A DNA stretch of 64,000 bases from Lachnospiraceae bacterium (GTDB lineage: Bacteria; Bacillota; Clostridia; Lachnospirales; Lachnospiraceae). The translations under genes were made by a program, and so were the position numbers. Under the pieces are notes generated by a model. It was not told where the DNA came from. It searched no databases and saw only the letters and a list, made by a program, of their open reading frames with translations. How positions within the stretch are numbered: position 1 is the stretch's first letter; the number at the start of each line of letters is the position of its first letter. Positions 37,484-46,005 of this stretch are shown here, one piece after another. Location: the NCBI GenBank assembly GCA_016284355.1, contig JAEEOQ010000005.1, positions 1 through 64,000 of the forward strand. The letters run 5' to 3'.

Positions 37484-38272
37484 ATGGAACTTATAATAGA
37501 TACACACACGCACTATGACGACGAGCAGTTTGATAATGATAGAAAAGAGCTCCTTTGCGGCCTTAAAGAGCGGGGCATCGGGACTGTTATACATGCCTCC
37601 GCCAGCATGTCTAATCTAAAGGCGGGCCTTGCCCTTGCAAAAGAATATGATTTTATATACACTATGGCAGGCTTCCACCCTGACGAAATCGCAGAGCTTT
37701 CAAATGGCGGCTACGAATACCTTGAAAGCCTTGTGGCAAGTCCTGAAATAATAAAAGAAAACAAGATCGGGGCTATAGGCGAGATCGGGCTTGATTACCA
37801 CTGGATGGTACGCCCAAAAGAAGAGCAGATAGAAGGCTTTAGAAAACAGATGCGACTTGCAAAAAAAGCGGGTCTTCCTGTAAATATACACAGCCGCGAC
37901 GCCGCCGAAGACACCTGGAATGTTATGAAAGAAGAGCATCTTGAAGAGATAGGCGGCATTATACACTGCTTTTCAGGCTCAGTAGAAATGAGCAAAAACT
38001 ACCTTGCCGCAGGCTTTTACCTTGGTATAGGCGGAGTTGTAACCTTCAAAAACTCCAAAAAGCTTAAGCAAGTGGTTATAGAAGCCCCGGTAGAGCGCCT
38101 TGTCCTTGAGACCGACTGCCCTTACCTTGCTCCCGAGCCAAACCGCGGCAAACGCAACGACTCCGGCAACCTCATCTACGTAGCTGCAGAGATCGCAAGC
38201 CTAAAAGACATGCCGATAGACGACGTGATCCGCATCACAAGTGAAAATGCAAGAAGAGTGTATGGACTGTAA
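37484..38272 (+). CDS. tatD: TatD-family metal-dependent hydrolase
   Basis: 262 residues: IDTHTHYDD (metal HxH), GEIGLDYHW, PVNIHSRDA, IIHCFSGS and LETDCPYLAPEPNRGKRND. TatD/YcfH enzymes are 3'-5' DNA exonucleases or deacylases in the cytoplasm. AAAGAGG precedes the ATG. It is the last core gene before the accessory island. Confidence 0.92.
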   Translation: MELIIDTHTHYDDEQFDNDRKELLCGLKERGIGTVIHASASMSNLKAGLALAKEYDFIYTMAGFHPDEIAELSNGGYEYLESLVASPEIIKENKIGAIGEIGLDYHWMVRPKEEQIEGFRKQMRLAKKAGLPVNIHSRDAAEDTWNVMKEEHLEEIGGIIHCFSGSVEMSKNYLAAGFYLGIGGVVTFKNSKKLKQVVIEAPVERLVLETDCPYLAPEPNRGKRNDSGNLIYVAAEIASLKDMPIDDVIRITSENARRVYGL

Positions 38273-38333
38273 AACACACTCGTTAAAAGATATGCGGACG
38301 CCACCGGTACAATGGCGCCCACATGCATATAAA

Positions 38334-38591
38334 CTAATGCCAATTTTTTACAGCTATGACTATATTCATGATTCCCAATGACAAAAAAACAGATAAGCCA
38401 CTAATTATTGTTGAATACCACCATTTTTTCTTTATTCTATAATAGTGTGTACTTATCCCATGAAATAGAATTAACAAAAAACTTAATGCTACTATGCTAG
38501 TAATATAGAATTGTCTCTTTAAAAGGAAGTAAATTAACAATTCAAGCAAAGCGTATAAAGCAGTGGACACTAAAAACCATATAAATACCAT
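38334..38591 (-). CDS. Small three-helix membrane protein, candidate immunity protein
   Basis: 85 residues from ATG 38591, almost entirely hydrophobic, with three predicted helices (about 1-22, 28-47 and 60-82). The strong AGGAGG (38626-38621) is nine bases before a different ATG (38611-38609), which is 20 bases upstream and out of frame by one base. Between them is a run of six G. One more G (or two fewer) would join that ATG to this frame (MKGGKQAMVFIWF). So the gene may be frameshifted, phase-variable, or translated by coupling from a 13-codon leader. It shares a 76-bp promoter block with the peptide-bacteriocin operon. An immunity role is inference from size, topology and shared control. 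Confidence 0.65.
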   Translation of the reverse strand: MVFIWFLVSTALYALLELLIYFLLKRQFYITSIVALSFLLILFHGISTHYYRIKKKWWYSTIISGLSVFLSLGIMNIVIAVKNWH

Positions 38592-38637
38592 AGCCTGCTT
38601 CCCCCCTTCATACTACTTTTCCTCCTAAATTTGTTAT

Positions 38638-38713
38638 GATAACGCATTATCTATAAATTAAAATATGCTAACCCCACCAATAAGTAAAGAGACATATAGT
38701 TCTCATTAGCTTG
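38638..38713 (-). promoter_or_regulatory. Promoter block A (76 bp, duplicated at 42446-42521)
   Basis: Differs from block B at only 5 of 76 positions. It contains an imperfect 16-bp dyad GAGA-N2-TATA-N2-TCTC (38689-38704), a -10-like TATAGA/GATAAT region without a good -35, and a near-perfect 14-bp palindrome (38638-38651). It starts exactly 26 bases before the ATGAAG start, as in block B. The form suggests an activator-dependent promoter. Confidence 0.75.
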
Positions 38714-38748
38714 TCTTTTTTGTTGAAATTTGGACCAAAACAGGATAT

Positions 38749-38764
38749 CATATACCGGAATATG
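38749..38764. promoter_or_regulatory. 16-bp dyad at the regulator's own promoter
   Basis: CATATACCGGAATATG matches its reverse complement except at one symmetric pair. It overlaps the likely -10 area (TATACC) 24 bases before the regulator's ATG. Possible autoregulatory operator. Confidence 0.45.
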
Positions 38765-38787
38765 TTTTTAAAAGGATCATTTTTATT

Positions 38788-39714
38788 ATGAAAGATAACA
38801 TACATATCGGAGAAGTAATCAAATCTTGCCGTGTTGCAGCAGGTTTATCGCAAGAAGATCTAGCTGAATCGATTTGTTCAAGAGAATACCTTGGAAGAGT
38901 TGAGCGAGGCCTAAACGCCCCAACCATCGAGGTAATAGATAGCTTATCCGAAAGGCTAAATCAAAATATTTATGAGTTATACTCACTTCTACTAAAGCAT
39001 TCAGATATCAAAACGCACATAAAGATTGAGTCAATGAATGAGTATTTTACTTATGGAAAAATATCCGAAATCCTTCCACTACTTGAAGAATGTAGCGCTG
39101 ACCCAGCCTTTCAAACAGGGGAACCGTTTCAGATATTGATGTACGGGTATGCTCTTTACTATTCACTCACCCTAAGGCAATATAGTACCTCTATAGACTA
39201 TTCTCTTAAGGGATTGCTCTCAAAATACAGAACCACGGATCAGATATGCTCACTAAAGCACCATTACAGCAATGTTGATATTACCTTGATGCAACACTGG
39301 GCTGTCAACATCTGCAGATTAAATGACAAAGCTGGTTTAAATATTTTAAATTTTTTACTTGAGTATTTGTTTCAGACCCTTTCGGACAGCCAATACAGAG
39401 TAAATGCTGTTCACAGATTTGAATCAAAAATTATAGGGCCGGTTTGCTATAACAAATTTCTGTTTCAAAAGGCCTTTGGCATTGCTCTAAGCGAAAGTGA
39501 CCTCTCGCAGCTGAACACTTCCATCTCCTTGATGAAGAAAAGCTCATCCATGTACTTTTTACCGGAATTATTGCTTATCCGCGGAAATATATATAAGAAA
39601 AGCGGAAATAACGACGCCGCTGACTTTGACCTTAGAACCGGCAAAGCATTGGGATCCTTTTTATACGACGACACCTATTTAGAAAAGATTATAAAGGAAG
39701 CCGCTTCAATCTGA
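38788..39714 (+). CDS. HTH (XRE) regulator of Rgg/PlcR (RRNPP-like) architecture
   Basis: 308 residues. The N-terminal ~65 residues form an XRE helix-turn-helix (IGEVIKSCRVAAGLSQEDLAE, CSREYLGRVERGLNAPTIEVIDSL). The remaining ~240 residues are helical and TPR-like, without other motifs. Length and layout match peptide-binding RRNPP regulators (Rgg, PlcR, ComR). In those families a secreted, re-imported peptide binds the TPR domain. A short exported peptide gene lies 2.6 kb away behind promoter block B. The divergent 85-residue gene has the related block A. Peptide control is inference. AAAGGA lies 11 bases before the ATG; the end of the coding region forms part of a terminator. Confidence 0.8.
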   Translation: MKDNIHIGEVIKSCRVAAGLSQEDLAESICSREYLGRVERGLNAPTIEVIDSLSERLNQNIYELYSLLLKHSDIKTHIKIESMNEYFTYGKISEILPLLEECSADPAFQTGEPFQILMYGYALYYSLTLRQYSTSIDYSLKGLLSKYRTTDQICSLKHHYSNVDITLMQHWAVNICRLNDKAGLNILNFLLEYLFQTLSDSQYRVNAVHRFESKIIGPVCYNKFLFQKAFGIALSESDLSQLNTSISLMKKSSSMYFLPELLLIRGNIYKKSGNNDAADFDLRTGKALGSFLYDDTYLEKIIKEAASI

Positions 39715-39736
39715 AGCGGCTTCCTTGTTGTATTTA
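39694..39736. terminator. Terminator between the regulator and the bacteriocin operon
   Basis: Perfect 15-bp arms (39694-39708 and 39712-39726) with loop ATC and U-rich flank on the plus strand. The left arm includes the last regulator codons. It can serve both converging transcripts. A 21-base core of this hairpin recurs on the opposite strand at 42787-42807. Confidence 0.85.
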
Positions 39737-39837
39737 CCTCAAATCTATTATCTCAGAATTAACATATATATATCCATCATAAGTAAACGAATCGGCATAT
39801 GCTAACGCCTTTAATGCCATTTGGCGATTTTTGAATA

Positions 39838-40974
39838 TTATTTTAAATTTACTATCTCCGGAATCTCTTTATTGTATTCACCATAGACTATAAAATATGC
39901 TTTATCGTCTTTGATCTGCAAATAAATGCTGGTTTCATCACCAAGAGCCTCTCGGTCATCTCTTTTTAGAATTGCGTTAAAATCATTGTCATAGAGATAT
40001 ATTGTGGTACTTGAATCGTCGTAATTAGTTAATATGTTATAATTGCCATTTTGGGTAAATCTGTATGAGCCTTCATCGCTAATACGGTCAGTACTATAGC
40101 TGAAAGAGTGTAAAATCTTTTGATCTCCGTCCGTATTAATCTCATATACCTTGACAATATAATCTTCTGTTCCTGCCTCTATGTCTTCTATATAAGTTTT
40201 ATCTATGGAATAAAAACAGCCATCTCCTTTTCCGGAACAATTAATATCCAGGTCATTTTCATTGTCAAGTTTGTCAAACTGACCTGCACTTGAATTTAAT
40301 TTATATAAATCTTTTCCGTTTACTACAAATAGTTCACCATCAACTTCAAAAATGGAATATGCCTCTTTATTTGAAGTATTTATATATGATCGTTTTTCTT
40401 TTGTATCAGGATCAATGCTCTTTAGCTTTGCTCCCATAATTTCTTTGTCACCTAAATATGTCGAGTAATACAAAAGACCATCTTTAAGAGCAACCTCATA
40501 TTTATCGCCACCCAAAAGCTTGGTTTTTCCTTCTCCGTTTAATTTTGTTCTGTACCATCCGCTACTTTTTCTATAGTAAACATATCCGTTGTCATAACCA
40601 AGAATGCTCCATATATTTTTTGCAAGCTTGTATGGTTTAGCTTTAAGATCCGATATTTTTAACACGTACATTCCTTTACCGGTAATATAAACCAGTCGGT
40701 TGCCAAAGAATGTAAAATCTTTTACATTTTTCTTTATGACTGTCGGCTTTGTCCCCTGACTTGCCATTTTTGAAGTATATTTGTAAAGAACTTCATCCCT
40801 GGTAAAATAAAGATCATTCTTATGATATTTACCCCGAACTACAGCCGAAGCCTGCAGGTCCTCGCTCAATTTTGAAATATCTGGTTTAGATGCAGCAAAT
40901 GCTTTCGAGGATAATGCTATTGTTGAAAATAATAACACAACCAAGATCTTCACTACTATTTTGGATTTTCTCAT
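39838..40974 (-). CDS. Secreted beta-propeller-like protein, third gene of bacteriocin operon
   Basis: 378 residues. A signal peptide ends at AFA-ASKP (residues ~27-28). The mature part has repeated short beta segments with Gly/Tyr turns (YHKNDLYFTRDEVLYKYT, FGNRLVYITGKGMYVL, YDNGYVYYRKSSGWYRTK), as in DUF5050-type propellers. It resembles the 562-residue protein at 42818-44506, including the AFAASK junction. It lies 22 bases after the helveticin-like gene. The last 15 codons overlap a different frame that stays open to 39737 and reads like a continuation (FKIIFKNRQMALKAL), so the gene may be 3'-frameshifted. Function unknown. Confidence 0.75.
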   Translation of the reverse strand: MRKSKIVVKILVVLLFSTIALSSKAFAASKPDISKLSEDLQASAVVRGKYHKNDLYFTRDEVLYKYTSKMASQGTKPTVIKKNVKDFTFFGNRLVYITGKGMYVLKISDLKAKPYKLAKNIWSILGYDNGYVYYRKSSGWYRTKLNGEGKTKLLGGDKYEVALKDGLLYYSTYLGDKEIMGAKLKSIDPDTKEKRSYINTSNKEAYSIFEVDGELFVVNGKDLYKLNSSAGQFDKLDNENDLDINCSGKGDGCFYSIDKTYIEDIEAGTEDYIVKVYEINTDGDQKILHSFSYSTDRISDEGSYRFTQNGNYNILTNYDDSSTTIYLYDNDFNAILKRDDREALGDETSIYLQIKDDKAYFIVYGEYNKEIPEIVNLK

Positions 40975-40996
40975 GTTAATTCCTCTTCACGTTTTA

Positions 40997-42274
40997 TTAA
41001 TAGTTATTTGATGTAAAATTAGAACTCTGAATTTTATATATTCTATATTTCCCAGTGTTTCTGGTATATACCATATCTCTTATAACACAATCCGTATATC
41101 CGCCATTTATCTGAAGTCCCTCAATTTCAAGTTTGTCTCCAGAGAAATCATTAGAGTTAGTTACTATTGCATTATGTAACCAATTGCATGAGTAGCTTTT
41201 TGTTTTACTATTCATTTTTCCTGAAACAACAGCAATCATCGGTGTTTGACCCTTTTTCCCTCCACTGATTTTTAGATCACCATTATTTTCGAGTTCTATA
41301 CCCTGAAAAGAATCATTTGGCAAAATCGCATTAGTCGCAGATTGCTGATAACTACAAATAAGATCATCTCTTATCACACTATCATAACAATATATATACT
41401 TAGAATTTTGAGCTTCCTTAGCATCAAATGCATCATTTATTCCATCCATATCATAAAAACTATATTGAATATTTCCTTTGTCACTTTTCATCCAAATGAC
41501 CAATGTTGATAAATCGGTAGACACTGCAGCGTCAACTCTTTTGGCCGAATCATAGGGCGTATTATCTTTGTTTGCATAAGCAATACTCGCCAATCTTGGA
41601 ATGTCTGTATACTTTAATGTGGTGCCCGCAGAATAAGTCACTCTGCCAATTTGTAACGACCAGTGATCATAAACAGTTTCGCCTTTCTCATTTTTCCTTG
41701 ATGCTGTGCTAGCCTTACATCCCACAATAAATTGCGGGTTACCACGAGAGTCATCTCCCACATACTCAAGCGTCTGTCCATGGCCTCCACCTGTTATCGT
41801 CATATAATCTATAACTGTTGCTTCTTTGTTAGCTTTATTGATTAAGCAACGTGATATCCTTGTATCTGCATCTTCATGTAAAGTTATATAAATATAATTT
41901 CCAACTTGGCATGATTTCTGGATAGCTTCATCAGCCGTCAACCCCTTCAAAGTGTACCCTAATGTGGCATTAACTTTAATCGGTTTTGAGGATTTAGGCG
42001 AATTTAGCCCTTTACTTTCAGGAACAACTAAGTTCGGATGTTCTTTTTTAAAACGAGCGTATTCTTCATATGTATCAAAATCATCAATATCAAGCAAACA
42101 TGGTACAGCGTCATCTTCATGTGAATCAAGTAAATATTCTTCGCCATAGATGTCTAGCCTTTCATCCACAGAAATAATGACTTCGCGCTCAGCATGAACA
42201 TAATCATATCTTAGCATCATACTAGTTGCTATGCAACAAACAAGTACTAATGCAATTAAATTTCTCTTTTTCAT
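40997..42274 (-). CDS. Helveticin J-like class III bacteriocin family protein
   Basis: 425 residues with a signal peptide (cleavage near YVHA-ER, residues ~28-29). From residue ~140 the order of motifs follows the helveticin J family: GGGHGQTLEYV, NPQFIVGCKAS, WSLQIGRVTY, IPRLASIAYAN, AKRVDAAVSTD, a SFYDMDGIN segment, NDSFQGIELENNGDLKISGG and KLEIEGLQINGG. Helveticin J is a heat-labile bactericidal protein of lactobacilli; homologues are secreted and often unstudied. AAAGGAG precedes the ATG. It follows a 42-residue exported peptide gene by 16 bases. Bactericidal activity is inference from family resemblance. Confidence 0.75.
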   Translation of the reverse strand: MKKRNLIALVLVCCIATSMMLRYDYVHAEREVIISVDERLDIYGEEYLLDSHEDDAVPCLLDIDDFDTYEEYARFKKEHPNLVVPESKGLNSPKSSKPIKVNATLGYTLKGLTADEAIQKSCQVGNYIYITLHEDADTRISRCLINKANKEATVIDYMTITGGGHGQTLEYVGDDSRGNPQFIVGCKASTASRKNEKGETVYDHWSLQIGRVTYSAGTTLKYTDIPRLASIAYANKDNTPYDSAKRVDAAVSTDLSTLVIWMKSDKGNIQYSFYDMDGINDAFDAKEAQNSKYIYCYDSVIRDDLICSYQQSATNAILPNDSFQGIELENNGDLKISGGKKGQTPMIAVVSGKMNSKTKSYSCNWLHNAIVTNSNDFSGDKLEIEGLQINGGYTDCVIRDMVYTRNTGKYRIYKIQSSNFTSNNY

Positions 42275-42290
42275 TTTGATTCTCCTTTAG

Positions 42291-42419
42291 TTAATAAGTG
42301 TTATTATCTGTCATGATCGGTACCCCTTCATTTCCCACCGGTGGTGGATCATTTACGTTGCCTAACGGGATCAACGTAAGAGCCAGTACCATAATCAACG
42401 CTATTGCTCTTTTCTTCAT
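42291..42419 (-). CDS. 42-residue exported peptide, candidate pheromone precursor
   Basis: A short gene with AAGGAG ten bases before its ATG (42419-42417). The product begins MKKRAIALIMVLALTLIP, a classical signal sequence. It ends with about 20 polar residues (GNVNDPPPVGNEG, then VPIMTDNNTY). This layout matches precursors of RRNPP-type signal peptides (PapR, Phr, NprX-like), whose C-terminal few residues are the signal. It is the first gene of an operon with the helveticin-like and propeller proteins, behind promoter block B. A small bacteriocin or an attenuator peptide are alternatives. Confidence 0.68.
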   Translation of the reverse strand: MKKRAIALIMVLALTLIPLGNVNDPPPVGNEGVPIMTDNNTY

Positions 42420-42445
42420 ACTACTTTTTCTCCTTATTTTTCTTT

Positions 42446-42521
42446 GATAATGCATTATCTATATACTAAAATATGCGAACCCCACCAATAAGTAAAGAGA
42501 CATATAGTTCTCATTGGCTTG
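42446..42521 (-). promoter_or_regulatory. Promoter block B for the peptide-bacteriocin operon
   Basis: Copy of block A, 5 differences in 76. It has the 16-bp dyad at 42497-42512, a perfect 14-bp palindrome GATAATGCATTATC at 42446-42459, and TATAGA/GATAAT as -10 candidates with no good -35. It lies 26 bases before the peptide ATG, the same distance as block A. Confidence 0.75.
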
Positions 42522-42571
42522 CTTTCTATTGACATTATAATTAATACATAGTAAAGTTACTCAGAAAAGTA

Positions 42572-42645
42572 CTAACAAAATCTAACAACTTCTAACAAAA
42601 TCTAACAAGATTTCAAAGTACTAACAGAAAATAAAAGTACTAACA
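42572..42645. repeat. Phased CTAACA (TGTTAG) array B
   Basis: Six copies of CTAACA at 42572, 42582, 42592, 42602, 42621 and 42640: spacings 10, 10, 10, 19 and 19 bases, close to whole helical turns. Array C at 44542 shares the internal layout. This and the short ORF below fill the 400-base gap between the peptide and the propeller gene. Confidence 0.7.
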
Positions 42646-42667
42646 GATTACAGGGGGAGACATTTGG

Positions 42668-42754
42668 ATGCTTTCAAGAAGAGGCTCAGAATATGGTTCT
42701 GTCAGCTTGGCCTTACCAAGATTTGAGGAGTACGTAAAATCAGTTGAAATATAG
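42668..42754 (+). CDS. Possible 28-residue peptide gene
   Basis: ATG with AGGGGGAG eight bases upstream; product begins MLSRRGSEYGSVSL and has no signal sequence. The phased array lies just upstream and a hairpin follows at 42783-42811. Another frame is also open here, so this may be a relic of a longer gene. Weak support. Confidence 0.25.
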   Translation: MLSRRGSEYGSVSLALPRFEEYVKSVEI

Positions 42755-42782
42755 TGAATTTTGCAAACGAGATGCATTTTCA

Positions 42783-42811
42783 ACCTGCCGCTTCAGATTG
42801 AAGCGGCAGGT
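42783..42811. terminator. Hairpin after the second propeller gene
   Basis: Perfect 13-bp arms (42783-42795 and 42799-42811), loop GAT. The U-rich flank is better on the plus strand. On the minus strand it follows the stop at 42818. Confidence 0.7.
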
Positions 42812-42817
42812 CTTGTT

Positions 42818-44506
42818 TTATTTAACTTTGTTTTTTACAATATCTGATATCTTGATATTAAGAAATGTTTCCGATATTTCAAATGAATATTCTCCGGTTT
42901 TCTCGTCAAACACTATACAGTCGTTATTTGCAAGAATTGCATCAATATCGATCTTCTCATCTTCAAAGTCGGTTAATATATTTATATACTCGTTATAGAA
43001 GCCATAATAAACCATTCCATATAATTCAAGGAGATATTCATCTTTCTTTATTCCGGAAGAAGGATTCTTAACTATCTCACGTATTTTGCCATCAAGATAT
43101 CTGCTAAACTCATCGCTACCCGGCTTATAAGAATATCCCTCCGTTTTCATGGTTTTAACAAACTTATCCTGAATCTCTTTTAGTGTAATATTGCCATTTT
43201 TAGCATAAAAATCTCTTAATTCATCAAGATCGATTATCTCATGTTTATCAAGCTCAGCTCCGTTATCGTCTACATATACAGCACCGTGGATGATATAAAG
43301 CTTATTACCGATCACCGTTGCATGCATATTGGTATAGTCAGTTAACCCGGCTATATGGCGGTGGCATAATAAATCTCCGTTTTTATCAAGTACCGAAACA
43401 TAGCTTGGATCGTCTCCATCGTATCCAAAATTCATTAAATATCCATTATGCATTTCTAATTTTCCACCAAGCAGAGCATTGACATAAGAAAGATGCGAAA
43501 ACTCCTTCCATTTTCCGTCCGTTTCTTGTCTTGTGATCAGTAATCCTCTGCCATTTTCAAGGTAGTCCAGGTTATTCGATATAATCTGTTTGTACCTGTA
43601 TCCATCTTCAAGAGTATAACCGGCATATTCGGGATATTCGTCCGCGCTTCCGAGTTTATTAAATTTTTTACCATCAAATATAAACAGCTCGTGCGTATAC
43701 TCTCTCTCTTCTCTGTTGTAATCCGTAACAGTTAGTATAACCTCTCCGTCTTGCTCCCTTAAGCCAACCTGTGGCCAGCTTCCTCCGTTTTTAACTTTTT
43801 TTATCAGCTTCCAATCGCTGCCATCCGGATTGGCCGAATAAATCTTGAAATATTTTGAAGCATACTGGTCATAAAGCCTGATGTAAACGAGTTTTTCAGT
43901 GCTTTCATTACTGAAAAAAGCATAATTACCATCATAAATCTTACTGCAGATTTTTTTCTTTTCTGTTCCGTCAGTATTTATACTATATAATGACTTTTTA
44001 TCATATACGTCTTTGATCCAATATATTTTATCTTTAAATTTCTTGGTATATTGTATCCAGGTATCAGAATCCTTTCGCAGCTTCATTACTTTACCTGTAT
44101 CAAGGTTTTTCGCATATACCCCCTGCTTGGGATTATCCGTATAAAAAGTCTCGTAGAATACGTAATTATCTTGGAATACAGCATTATGAAATACGTTCTT
44201 AACGTATTTCTTTAACTTATAGTCTTTTATATTTATTCTGTATATGTTCTGATATTTTGTCTCCTCATTTCTGGTAAAATAGACGTAGTCACCATACACA
44301 TATCCATTTATGGCAATATTGGTTTTCCACCCATCGTCAAAATCGCAGTTTTCAAGAACACGCTCCAAAATCTCCGACTTAGATGCCGCAAATGCACTAT
44401 TGCTGTGCATCACAAATAAACATGCCACTATCAACAAAGATGCTAAAATCAAAGTTATGCGATCTATCAAATTACTATTTTCTGTCTTCGTGTAATCCTT
44501 GATCAT
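42818..44506 (-). CDS. Secreted beta-propeller-like protein
   Basis: 562 residues from ATG 44506 (GGAGGAGGG six bases upstream; a longer frame from 44548 precedes that site). A cytoplasmic segment of ~15 residues leads to a hydrophobic signal ending AFA-ASKS. The mature protein has repeated beta segments (NGYVYGDYVYFTRNEE, YKIYSANPDGSDWKLIK) like DUF5050-type propellers. A C-terminal helical domain of ~150 residues follows. It is related to the 378-residue protein at 39838. The upstream region carries phased array C, shared with the bacteriocin operon, so joint control is likely. Function unknown. Confidence 0.75.
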   Translation of the reverse strand: MIKDYTKTENSNLIDRITLILASLLIVACLFVMHSNSAFAASKSEILERVLENCDFDDGWKTNIAINGYVYGDYVYFTRNEETKYQNIYRINIKDYKLKKYVKNVFHNAVFQDNYVFYETFYTDNPKQGVYAKNLDTGKVMKLRKDSDTWIQYTKKFKDKIYWIKDVYDKKSLYSINTDGTEKKKICSKIYDGNYAFFSNESTEKLVYIRLYDQYASKYFKIYSANPDGSDWKLIKKVKNGGSWPQVGLREQDGEVILTVTDYNREEREYTHELFIFDGKKFNKLGSADEYPEYAGYTLEDGYRYKQIISNNLDYLENGRGLLITRQETDGKWKEFSHLSYVNALLGGKLEMHNGYLMNFGYDGDDPSYVSVLDKNGDLLCHRHIAGLTDYTNMHATVIGNKLYIIHGAVYVDDNGAELDKHEIIDLDELRDFYAKNGNITLKEIQDKFVKTMKTEGYSYKPGSDEFSRYLDGKIREIVKNPSSGIKKDEYLLELYGMVYYGFYNEYINILTDFEDEKIDIDAILANNDCIVFDEKTGEYSFEISETFLNIKISDIVKNKVK

Positions 44507-44541
44507 TAATGTCCCTCCTCCAAACAAACGAGCAACAACCT

Positions 44542-44576
44542 CTAACAAAGTCTAACAAGATTTCAAAGTACTAACA
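44542..44576. repeat. Phased CTAACA (TGTTAG) array C
   Basis: Three copies of CTAACA at 44542, 44552 and 44571 (spacings 10 and 19). A 27-base stretch covering the last two copies is identical in array B. It lies just upstream of the ribosome site of the propeller gene. Confidence 0.7.
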
Positions 44577-44589
44577 GGGAATAAACGCA

Positions 44590-46005
44590 CTAAAATAAGT
44601 CATTAACAGTTATCACATTTTGAAAGATACCCGCATATCCATTATCTACCAAGCCGTAAGTTGTTACCAGTGTTGGAAAAATGGCGTATTTGGTGCCTGT
44701 AGCTAGCGCAAGATCGCTGATTTTTCTGCGAATGTCCAAATCCACTCCCTCATTAGCCTTAAATTCGGCTACCGAGTATTTCATTTCGCACATATTGATA
44801 ACCTGATCTTTTCTCACTATCATAAGATCAATCTGAGAGCCATACAGTCCCTTTTCATCATCTGTCCTGCAATACCAGCTGTTTTCCTCAGAATATATGC
44901 CACTTATACCAAGTTTTTCCTTTATCTTCTTAACGTGATCAAGACATACTCGTTCAAACGCCAAGCCAAGCCAAGTATTGATTTTTGGAGTGTTTATCTG
45001 TAATGTCCAAAAGTTTTCTTCCGTTGGCTCATTTTTAATAAACTGATGATAAAAAAGAGTATAATAATCAACAAGCTGATACATTGCATTTTTCTTTTTC
45101 ATTCCGAATGCATTGTATTTTCTTATGAAACCACAACTCTCAAGTTCTTCAAGTTTCTTTGTAAGATCACCCGAATTCTGTATTCCCGAAGCCTTTATTA
45201 TTTCTTCCCGATTCATACCCACTTTCTTTTCAGCCAGTGTTTCTATAATCTTAGTATATACTTCCGGATTCCTAAAAATCGAGGCATATAAATATCTGTA
45301 CTCTTCCCTAAGCGGCGCATCTTTTGCAAAAAGAATCTCGTCTACATTTTGAGCTATACTTAACCCCTTCTTTAAAAATGTCCAATAATAAGGAACTCCG
45401 CCAAATATCATATAGTATTGCAAGATCTGGCTTCTGTTAAGTGCCAGCCCTTCTGCGCTCACATACTCCTCGCACTCTCCAAGCGAAAACATACTAAGGT
45501 GAATAGTTTCGGTTATACGGTTATATAAACCTCCCTTGTCGTGGATCACTTTTGAAAGCAACCATGAAGTAGCAGATGCGCATACAATGAGAACAACATC
45601 TTTTCTGGCCGATGCCCATCCATTCCAGAAATTCTCCAGTGCCATAATAAGATCGCTTCTTGGCGTATCCATCCATGATAATTCATCTATAAATATTATT
45701 TTCTTTTTCTCAGTTGAGTTTCTGATCAGTTCTTTAAGATCCTCGAAGGCTTCCAGCCAATTTTTTGCTTTTTTTGTTGGCTTTCCACCGGAGTTTTTGA
45801 TCGAAGCCTGAAATTCAAAAAGCTGTTCCTTTAAATTTCCATTAGAAAGCCCGGCATGCTGGAAAGTGAATCTATATCCGTATGCCTCTCTTATCAGAAA
45901 AGTCTTTCCGATTCTCCTTCTTCCATACACTGCGACAAAATGAGACTTGTCATCTTTTGTAATCTCTTCAAGTATAGCCAGCTCTTTTTTCCTTCCTACT
46001 ATCAT
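44590..46005 (-). CDS. AAA-type ATPase with DUF234-like C-terminal domain
   Basis: 471 residues. The ATPase half has GRRRIGKTFLIREA (Walker A), IIFIDELSWMD (Walker B) and a sensor segment (VCASATSWLL). A winged-helix segment near 260-300 (AEKKVGMNREEIIKASGI) leads to a C-terminal nuclease-like domain with DLMIVRKDQVINMCEMKYS. This is the archaeal-type ATPase/DUF234 family, widespread and mobile. Biological role unsettled. Two near-identical long dyads stand directly upstream. Confidence 0.85.
   Translation of the reverse strand: MIVGRKKELAILEEITKDDKSHFVAVYGRRRIGKTFLIREAYGYRFTFQHAGLSNGNLKEQLFEFQASIKNSGGKPTKKAKNWLEAFEDLKELIRNSTEKKKIIFIDELSWMDTPRSDLIMALENFWNGWASARKDVVLIVCASATSWLLSKVIHDKGGLYNRITETIHLSMFSLGECEEYVSAEGLALNRSQILQYYMIFGGVPYYWTFLKKGLSIAQNVDEILFAKDAPLREEYRYLYASIFRNPEVYTKIIETLAEKKVGMNREEIIKASGIQNSGDLTKKLEELESCGFIRKYNAFGMKKKNAMYQLVDYYTLFYHQFIKNEPTEENFWTLQINTPKINTWLGLAFERVCLDHVKKIKEKLGISGIYSEENSWYCRTDDEKGLYGSQIDLMIVRKDQVINMCEMKYSVAEFKANEGVDLDIRRKISDLALATGTKYAIFPTLVTTYGLVDNGYAGIFQNVITVNDLF

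Follow-up and report, generated by a model that had tools for sequence, protein, structure and literature searches.

Within the window (the whole stretch of DNA analysed, 64 kb long), a promoter block occurs twice around the gene of a 308-residue regulator (Table 1). Copy 1 lies between this divergent gene and a short minus-strand unit, which consists of a 13-aa ORF starting at the ATGAAG of the block and an 85-aa ORF with no Pfam match, and copy 2 precedes an operon of three genes, encoding 42-aa, 425-aa and 378-aa products, that ends before a bidirectional terminator. A six-G run just past the copy-1 ATGAAG (38591-38611, minus strand) decides whether the 13-aa or the 85-aa ORF is in frame; a change in its length would switch the ORF that is read, and may reflect either real variation or the assembly. 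Two terminator hairpins (39694-39726 and 42783-42811) bracket the operon and have a common 21-nt core (GCCGCTTCAATCTGAAGCGGC and its reverse complement), and no Rfam families were found in 38000-45000. Phased arrays of CTAACA/TGTTAG hexamers (42572-42645 and 44542-44576; start spacings 10, 10, 10, 19, 19 and 10, 19) precede the peptide operon and a gene for a 564-aa DUF5050 protein; they are possibly a second shared regulatory site, and the perfect TGTTAGNNNTTGTTAG of the array occurs nowhere else in the 80% complete genome. In addition, a 471-aa ATPase (44590-46005, minus strand) matches the PADLOC candidate defence family PDC-S27 (3.4e-193).

Table 1. Positions in the window of the promoter blocks, their elements and the surrounding genes.
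Feature	Position	Strand	Remarks
85-aa hydrophobic (membrane) ORF	38334..38591	-	downstream of copy 1
13-aa ORF MKGGSRLWYLYGF	38570..38611	-	from copy-1 ATGAAG; overlaps 85-aa ORF
Promoter block copy 1 (dyad, promoter, RBS, ATGAAG)	38606..38713	-	108 nt, 90% identical to copy 2
Imperfect counterpart of 14-bp palindrome, GATAACGCATTATC	38638..38651	.	6/7 pairs, copy 1
Putative core promoter copy 1: -35 TTTACT abutting box, 17-nt spacer, -10 TATTTT (weak)	38660..38688	-	read from sequence
16-bp box copy 1, proposed receptor operator; minus strand GAGAACTATATGTCTC	38689..38704	.	conserved in L061, L029
Regulator promoter TTGAAA-17-TATCAT	38723..38751	+	10/12
308-aa RRNPP/PlcR-like peptide receptor (HTH_3 and TPR-like C-terminal domain)	38788..39714	+	
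Bidirectional terminator hairpin	39694..39726	.	between regulator and operon
378-aa secreted protein, family unknown	39838..40974	-	22 nt downstream of 425-aa gene
425-aa secreted protein	40997..42274	-	weak but above-threshold helveticin-J (PF17312) match; 16 nt downstream of propeptide
42-aa secreted propeptide MKKRAIALIMVLALTLIPLGNVNDPPPVGNEGVPIMTDNNTY, candidate pheromone	42291..42419	-	behind copy 2
Promoter block copy 2	42414..42521	-	108 nt, 90% identical to copy 1
14-bp palindrome GATAATGCATTATC, function not supported	42446..42459	.	perfect in copy 2 only
Putative core promoter copy 2: TTTACT-17-TATTTT	42468..42496	-	read from sequence
16-bp box copy 2, proposed receptor operator; minus strand GAGAACTATATGTCTC	42497..42512	.	

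The initial annotation had described the repeat as 76-bp blocks (38638-38713 and 42446-42521) with mismatches at 5 positions, lying 26 bases before an ATGAAG start, and both figures are exact, the start codons being read on the minus strand from ATG at 38611 and 42419. The repeat is longer than first noted: it takes in the RBS and ATGAAG with 11 differences over its 108 nt, which is far beyond chance, and the longest identical run between the copies (38 nt, 38670-38707) spans the dyad and the adjoining promoter. On the minus strand the order is upstream dyad, promoter region, RBS and ATGAAG; since the homology reaches the RBS and ATGAAG on the downstream side and ends 9 bp past the dyad on the upstream side, it sets the likely direction of transcription. 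A count of the block in the whole genome, of which 157 contigs with 2.71 Mb (80% complete) were covered, had been proposed beforehand to define the regulon and returned these two copies only, both within 4 kb of the regulator gene.

Both blocks contain, as annotated, the dyad GAGAnnTATAnnTCTC, which is identical in the two copies and has 6 of 8 pairs matched. This 16-bp dyad and the 14-bp palindrome had been taken as nested and are actually side by side, 37 bp apart; the palindrome, assigned to both blocks, is perfect in copy 2 and imperfect in copy 1. A dyad of such layout arises in 5% of dinucleotide shuffles of one block and a perfect 14-bp palindrome in 1.6%, so neither is compelling alone. 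The palindrome is not supported as a second operator, being imperfect in copy 1 and missing from two distant relatives (L029 and L061, see below); the -10 region may simply lie within it, and it gives no evidence for a second regulator. The idea of a shared regulator site is supported for the 16-bp box, with two genomic copies by the regulator and its presence in these two distant systems, and not for the 14-bp palindrome. The initial annotation had recognised neither an RRNPP/PlcR-like peptide receptor in the regulator nor a pheromone-like propeptide operon behind copy 2. A larger genome-wide dyad regulon was discarded for the perfect matches on contigs C36, C41 and C94 and for a one-mismatch match at C72:23976, all of them inside long ORFs, and one-mismatch matches are no commoner in the genome than those of a reversed control pattern. 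On the minus strand, no strong sigma-70 hexamer pair was found at the copy 1 promoter, for which GATAAT at 38646-38651 is an alternative -10.

The 308-residue regulator has the length (250-500 aa) and the N-terminal HTH of RRNPP receptors (HTH_3 match, 5e-11), and its best sequence match in PDB is PlcR. A profile of eight relatives (A1) matches full-length PlcR (1.2e-14), followed by Rgg2 and ComR. The AlphaFold model, computed from four aligned sequences, has a pLDDT of 86.5 (38 in single-sequence prediction), and its top PDB match is PlcR-PapR7-DNA (3u3w; Foldseek 4.4e-7; VIA Z 19.8, rmsd 5.6, 272 residues aligned). No Pfam TPR match was found in the window receptor itself, and a TPR-like domain is indicated by TPR_2 in L061, by the full-length PlcR profile match and by the fold match. 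Because the HTH_3 domain and the PlcR matches in sequence, profile and fold point to the RRNPP type, the regulator is, on these matches and a predicted model, an RRNPP-family peptide receptor closest to PlcR with PapR7 and DNA. No Rgg/GadR/MutR family model was among the NCBIfam matches, and the Rgg2 profile match covers residues 4-104 only.

No relatives of the receptor closer than 25-29% identity, as footprinting would require, were present in 397 genomes of the family, in which the genus was represented by a single genome. Viral contigs contained neither relatives nor box-promoter matches, and plasmids and phages gave only distant matches (24-42% identity). Unannotated stretches of the Enterococcus phage records PQ520200 and OR846627 encode a receptor relative (89% of length, 24% identity). 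Moreover, seven PlcR-like receptor genes were observed in about 15 kb of another locus, L026 (G344:C1:345000-364500), with ABC-transporter genes and a transposase-like ORF interspersed among them.

Two distant receptors, L029 of the rumen MAG RGIG8255 (28-29% identical to the 308-aa receptor) and L061 of genome G409 (19-24%), have the box GAGAAnTATAnnTCTC in the gap between the receptor gene and a divergent small secreted peptide ORF. The gap boxes read GAGAACTATAGTTCAC or GAGAAGTATAAGTCTA, with at most 1 mismatch; shuffled receptor/peptide gaps match the box with a chance of about 3e-4 each, and in the L029 genome the gap box is the only site within 1 mismatch. All three receptors have C-[ST]-R-E-Y in common at the recognition helix, and the box was found in both relatives with this REY helix, in contrast to none within 1 mismatch near the receptor in 37 homologues with other helices (2/2 vs 0/37, p about 0.001); as this set is small, a correspondence of helix and box in the three systems is only suggestive. 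In the window and in L061 (TTTTCA-17-TATAAT) the box abuts a putative -35 with a 17-nt spacer to the -10, and the distance from box to start codon is 133 nt in L029 vs 71-77 nt in the others. On the other side, the box ends 20-21 nt from the receptor start codon in L029 and L061, which would allow feedback on the receptor in these two systems. The mature peptides of the three systems had no safe similarity. With its 16 bp the box has the geometry of the PlcR box in a different sequence, and we infer an operator role for it.

Among the ORFs of the window, only the 42-aa ORF passes strict propeptide criteria, with a charged N terminus, a hydrophobic core and an RBS at propeptide length. The call of its export signal is heuristic (charged N terminus, hydrophobic core), and on this basis the ORF belongs with the 10-100 aa exported propeptides of RRNPP systems. 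The published RRNPP signature, which is the rule of RRNPP_detector, places propeptide and receptor -60 to 400 bp apart (PMC10075063); here the propeptide gene is 2.6 kb from the receptor, and the link between them is the shared promoter block only. Such adjacency is a rule of detection and not a mechanistic requirement. Several homologous receptors are also accompanied by secreted small ORFs.

Drawing on the computed repeat and its restriction to this locus, the family and fold of the receptor, the recurrence of the box in L029 and L061 and the features of the propeptide, we propose with a probability of about 0.72 that the block is the operator-promoter of an RRNPP-type (PlcR-like) quorum-sensing circuit, in which the peptide-bound receptor activates both promoters through the box. 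The 42-aa propeptide made from copy 2 would leave the cell and be trimmed, and its C-terminal fragment would be taken up again to occupy the TPR domain of the 308-aa protein, which as a dimer would bind the 16-bp box GAGAAnTATAnnTCTC via the REY recognition helix. From the box at the weak -35, the receptor would activate copy 2, and with it the pheromone, the helveticin-J-like protein and the second secreted protein, and also copy 1, which points away from the receptor gene and leads into the ORF of the small membrane protein. Since the receptor would switch on its own pheromone operon, the circuit would have positive feedback, and activation is favoured because the box stands upstream of a weak promoter. 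The logic of export, processing, re-import and reception is that of PlcR-PapR (PMC2464732) and of RRNPP systems generally (PMC10075063). Historically, the peptide gene may at first have been divergent from the receptor gene, in the arrangement of L029 and L061; the promoter unit would then have been duplicated, with the peptide kept at copy 2 and a membrane-protein ORF at copy 1.

The receptor might instead act on both promoters through the box as a repressor that is relieved by the peptide, as the sign of peptide control varies among RRNPP members (AloR13, PMC7425212) and the box lies close to the receptor start codon in L029 and L061. However, the box stands at the upstream margin of the repeat, before a weak -35, where activators sit, that strand has no strong sigma-70 promoter, and PlcR, the closest match, is an activator; we consider repression unlikely, though worth keeping in mind. 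Rather unlikely, too, is a PlcR-like receptor that binds the box with another ligand, be it the 13-aa product of copy 1, the peptide of another locus or a non-peptide: the 13-aa ORF occupies the place of the peptide gene in L061 and L029, the 42-aa propeptide gene is not adjacent to the receptor, and a non-peptide ligand of ComR has been reported (PMC12998947), but it is the 42-aa propeptide that has the shared promoter block and propeptide features unique in the window. We regard it as quite improbable that one receptor reads two signals, the 42-aa propeptide from copy 2 and the 13-residue leaderless peptide MKGGSRLWYLYGF from copy 1; if true, the promoter duplication would have made a system with two signals out of one with a single signal.

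Two further explanations were weighed. In one, another regulator, with its gene at some other locus, acts on the box, and the closeness of the receptor is incidental; further sites may be missing from a genome that is 80% complete, and binding of the box by the receptor is a prediction, but the receptor locus lies between the two copies and REY receptors in two distant genomes have the box beside them too, which makes this improbable. In the other, which seems very improbable to us, the block is a recent segmental duplication without a selected regulatory role. Its 90% identity over 108 nt in one 4-kb stretch does resemble a local duplication, but the 11 differences spare the 38-nt run with dyad and promoter (an estimated chance of about 1%), and the box is present in distant systems as well.

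The circuit preferred here, with activation by the peptide-bound receptor, would provide a concrete operator, receptor and candidate pheromone for a PlcR-like system in an anaerobic member of the Clostridia that probably belongs to the Lachnospirales; our literature search returned no such circuit for this group. Through the shared box, the pheromone gene would be paired with a non-adjacent receptor, which detection by adjacency would overlook, and the apparent correspondence of recognition helix and box could help to predict the operators of other receptors.

PlcR-PapR of the Bacillus cereus group is similar in full-length receptor homology and fold, in its small secreted propeptide, in an inverted-repeat box of 16 bp that precedes the promoter and has arms of 4 bp on either side of an A/T centre, and in the secreted proteins of the regulon. 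However, the structural-alignment identity to PlcR is only about 18%, the PlcR box wTATGnAwwwwTnCATAw (PMC2464732) differs from the GAGAACTATATGTCTC of both copies, PlcR controls 45 genes against two sites found here in an 80% complete genome, and papR adjoins plcR whereas the peptide gene here heads a distant operon, with no secreted-propeptide-like ORF found beside the 308-aa receptor. Because box sequence and gene order differ, the 308-aa receptor is judged not to be a PlcR orthologue. Rgg-SHP and ComR-ComS of streptococci also combine HTH and TPR-like receptors with small peptides, but their profile and fold matches are weaker than those of PlcR, and SHP is exported by another route (PMC10075063). 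AloR-AloP of Paenibacillus has RRNPP-like receptors with secreted peptides of 32-50 aa and many paralogues, as in L026, but its peptide gene is immediately downstream of the receptor (PMC7425212). The quorum-sensing systems of solventogenic Clostridium, likened here without sequence comparison, are RRNPP-type systems in Clostridia too (PMC7376267, PMC7206700). The system of the window fits the known RRNPP quorum-sensing class, except for its non-adjacent peptide gene, and what is new is a proposed operator sequence of its own.
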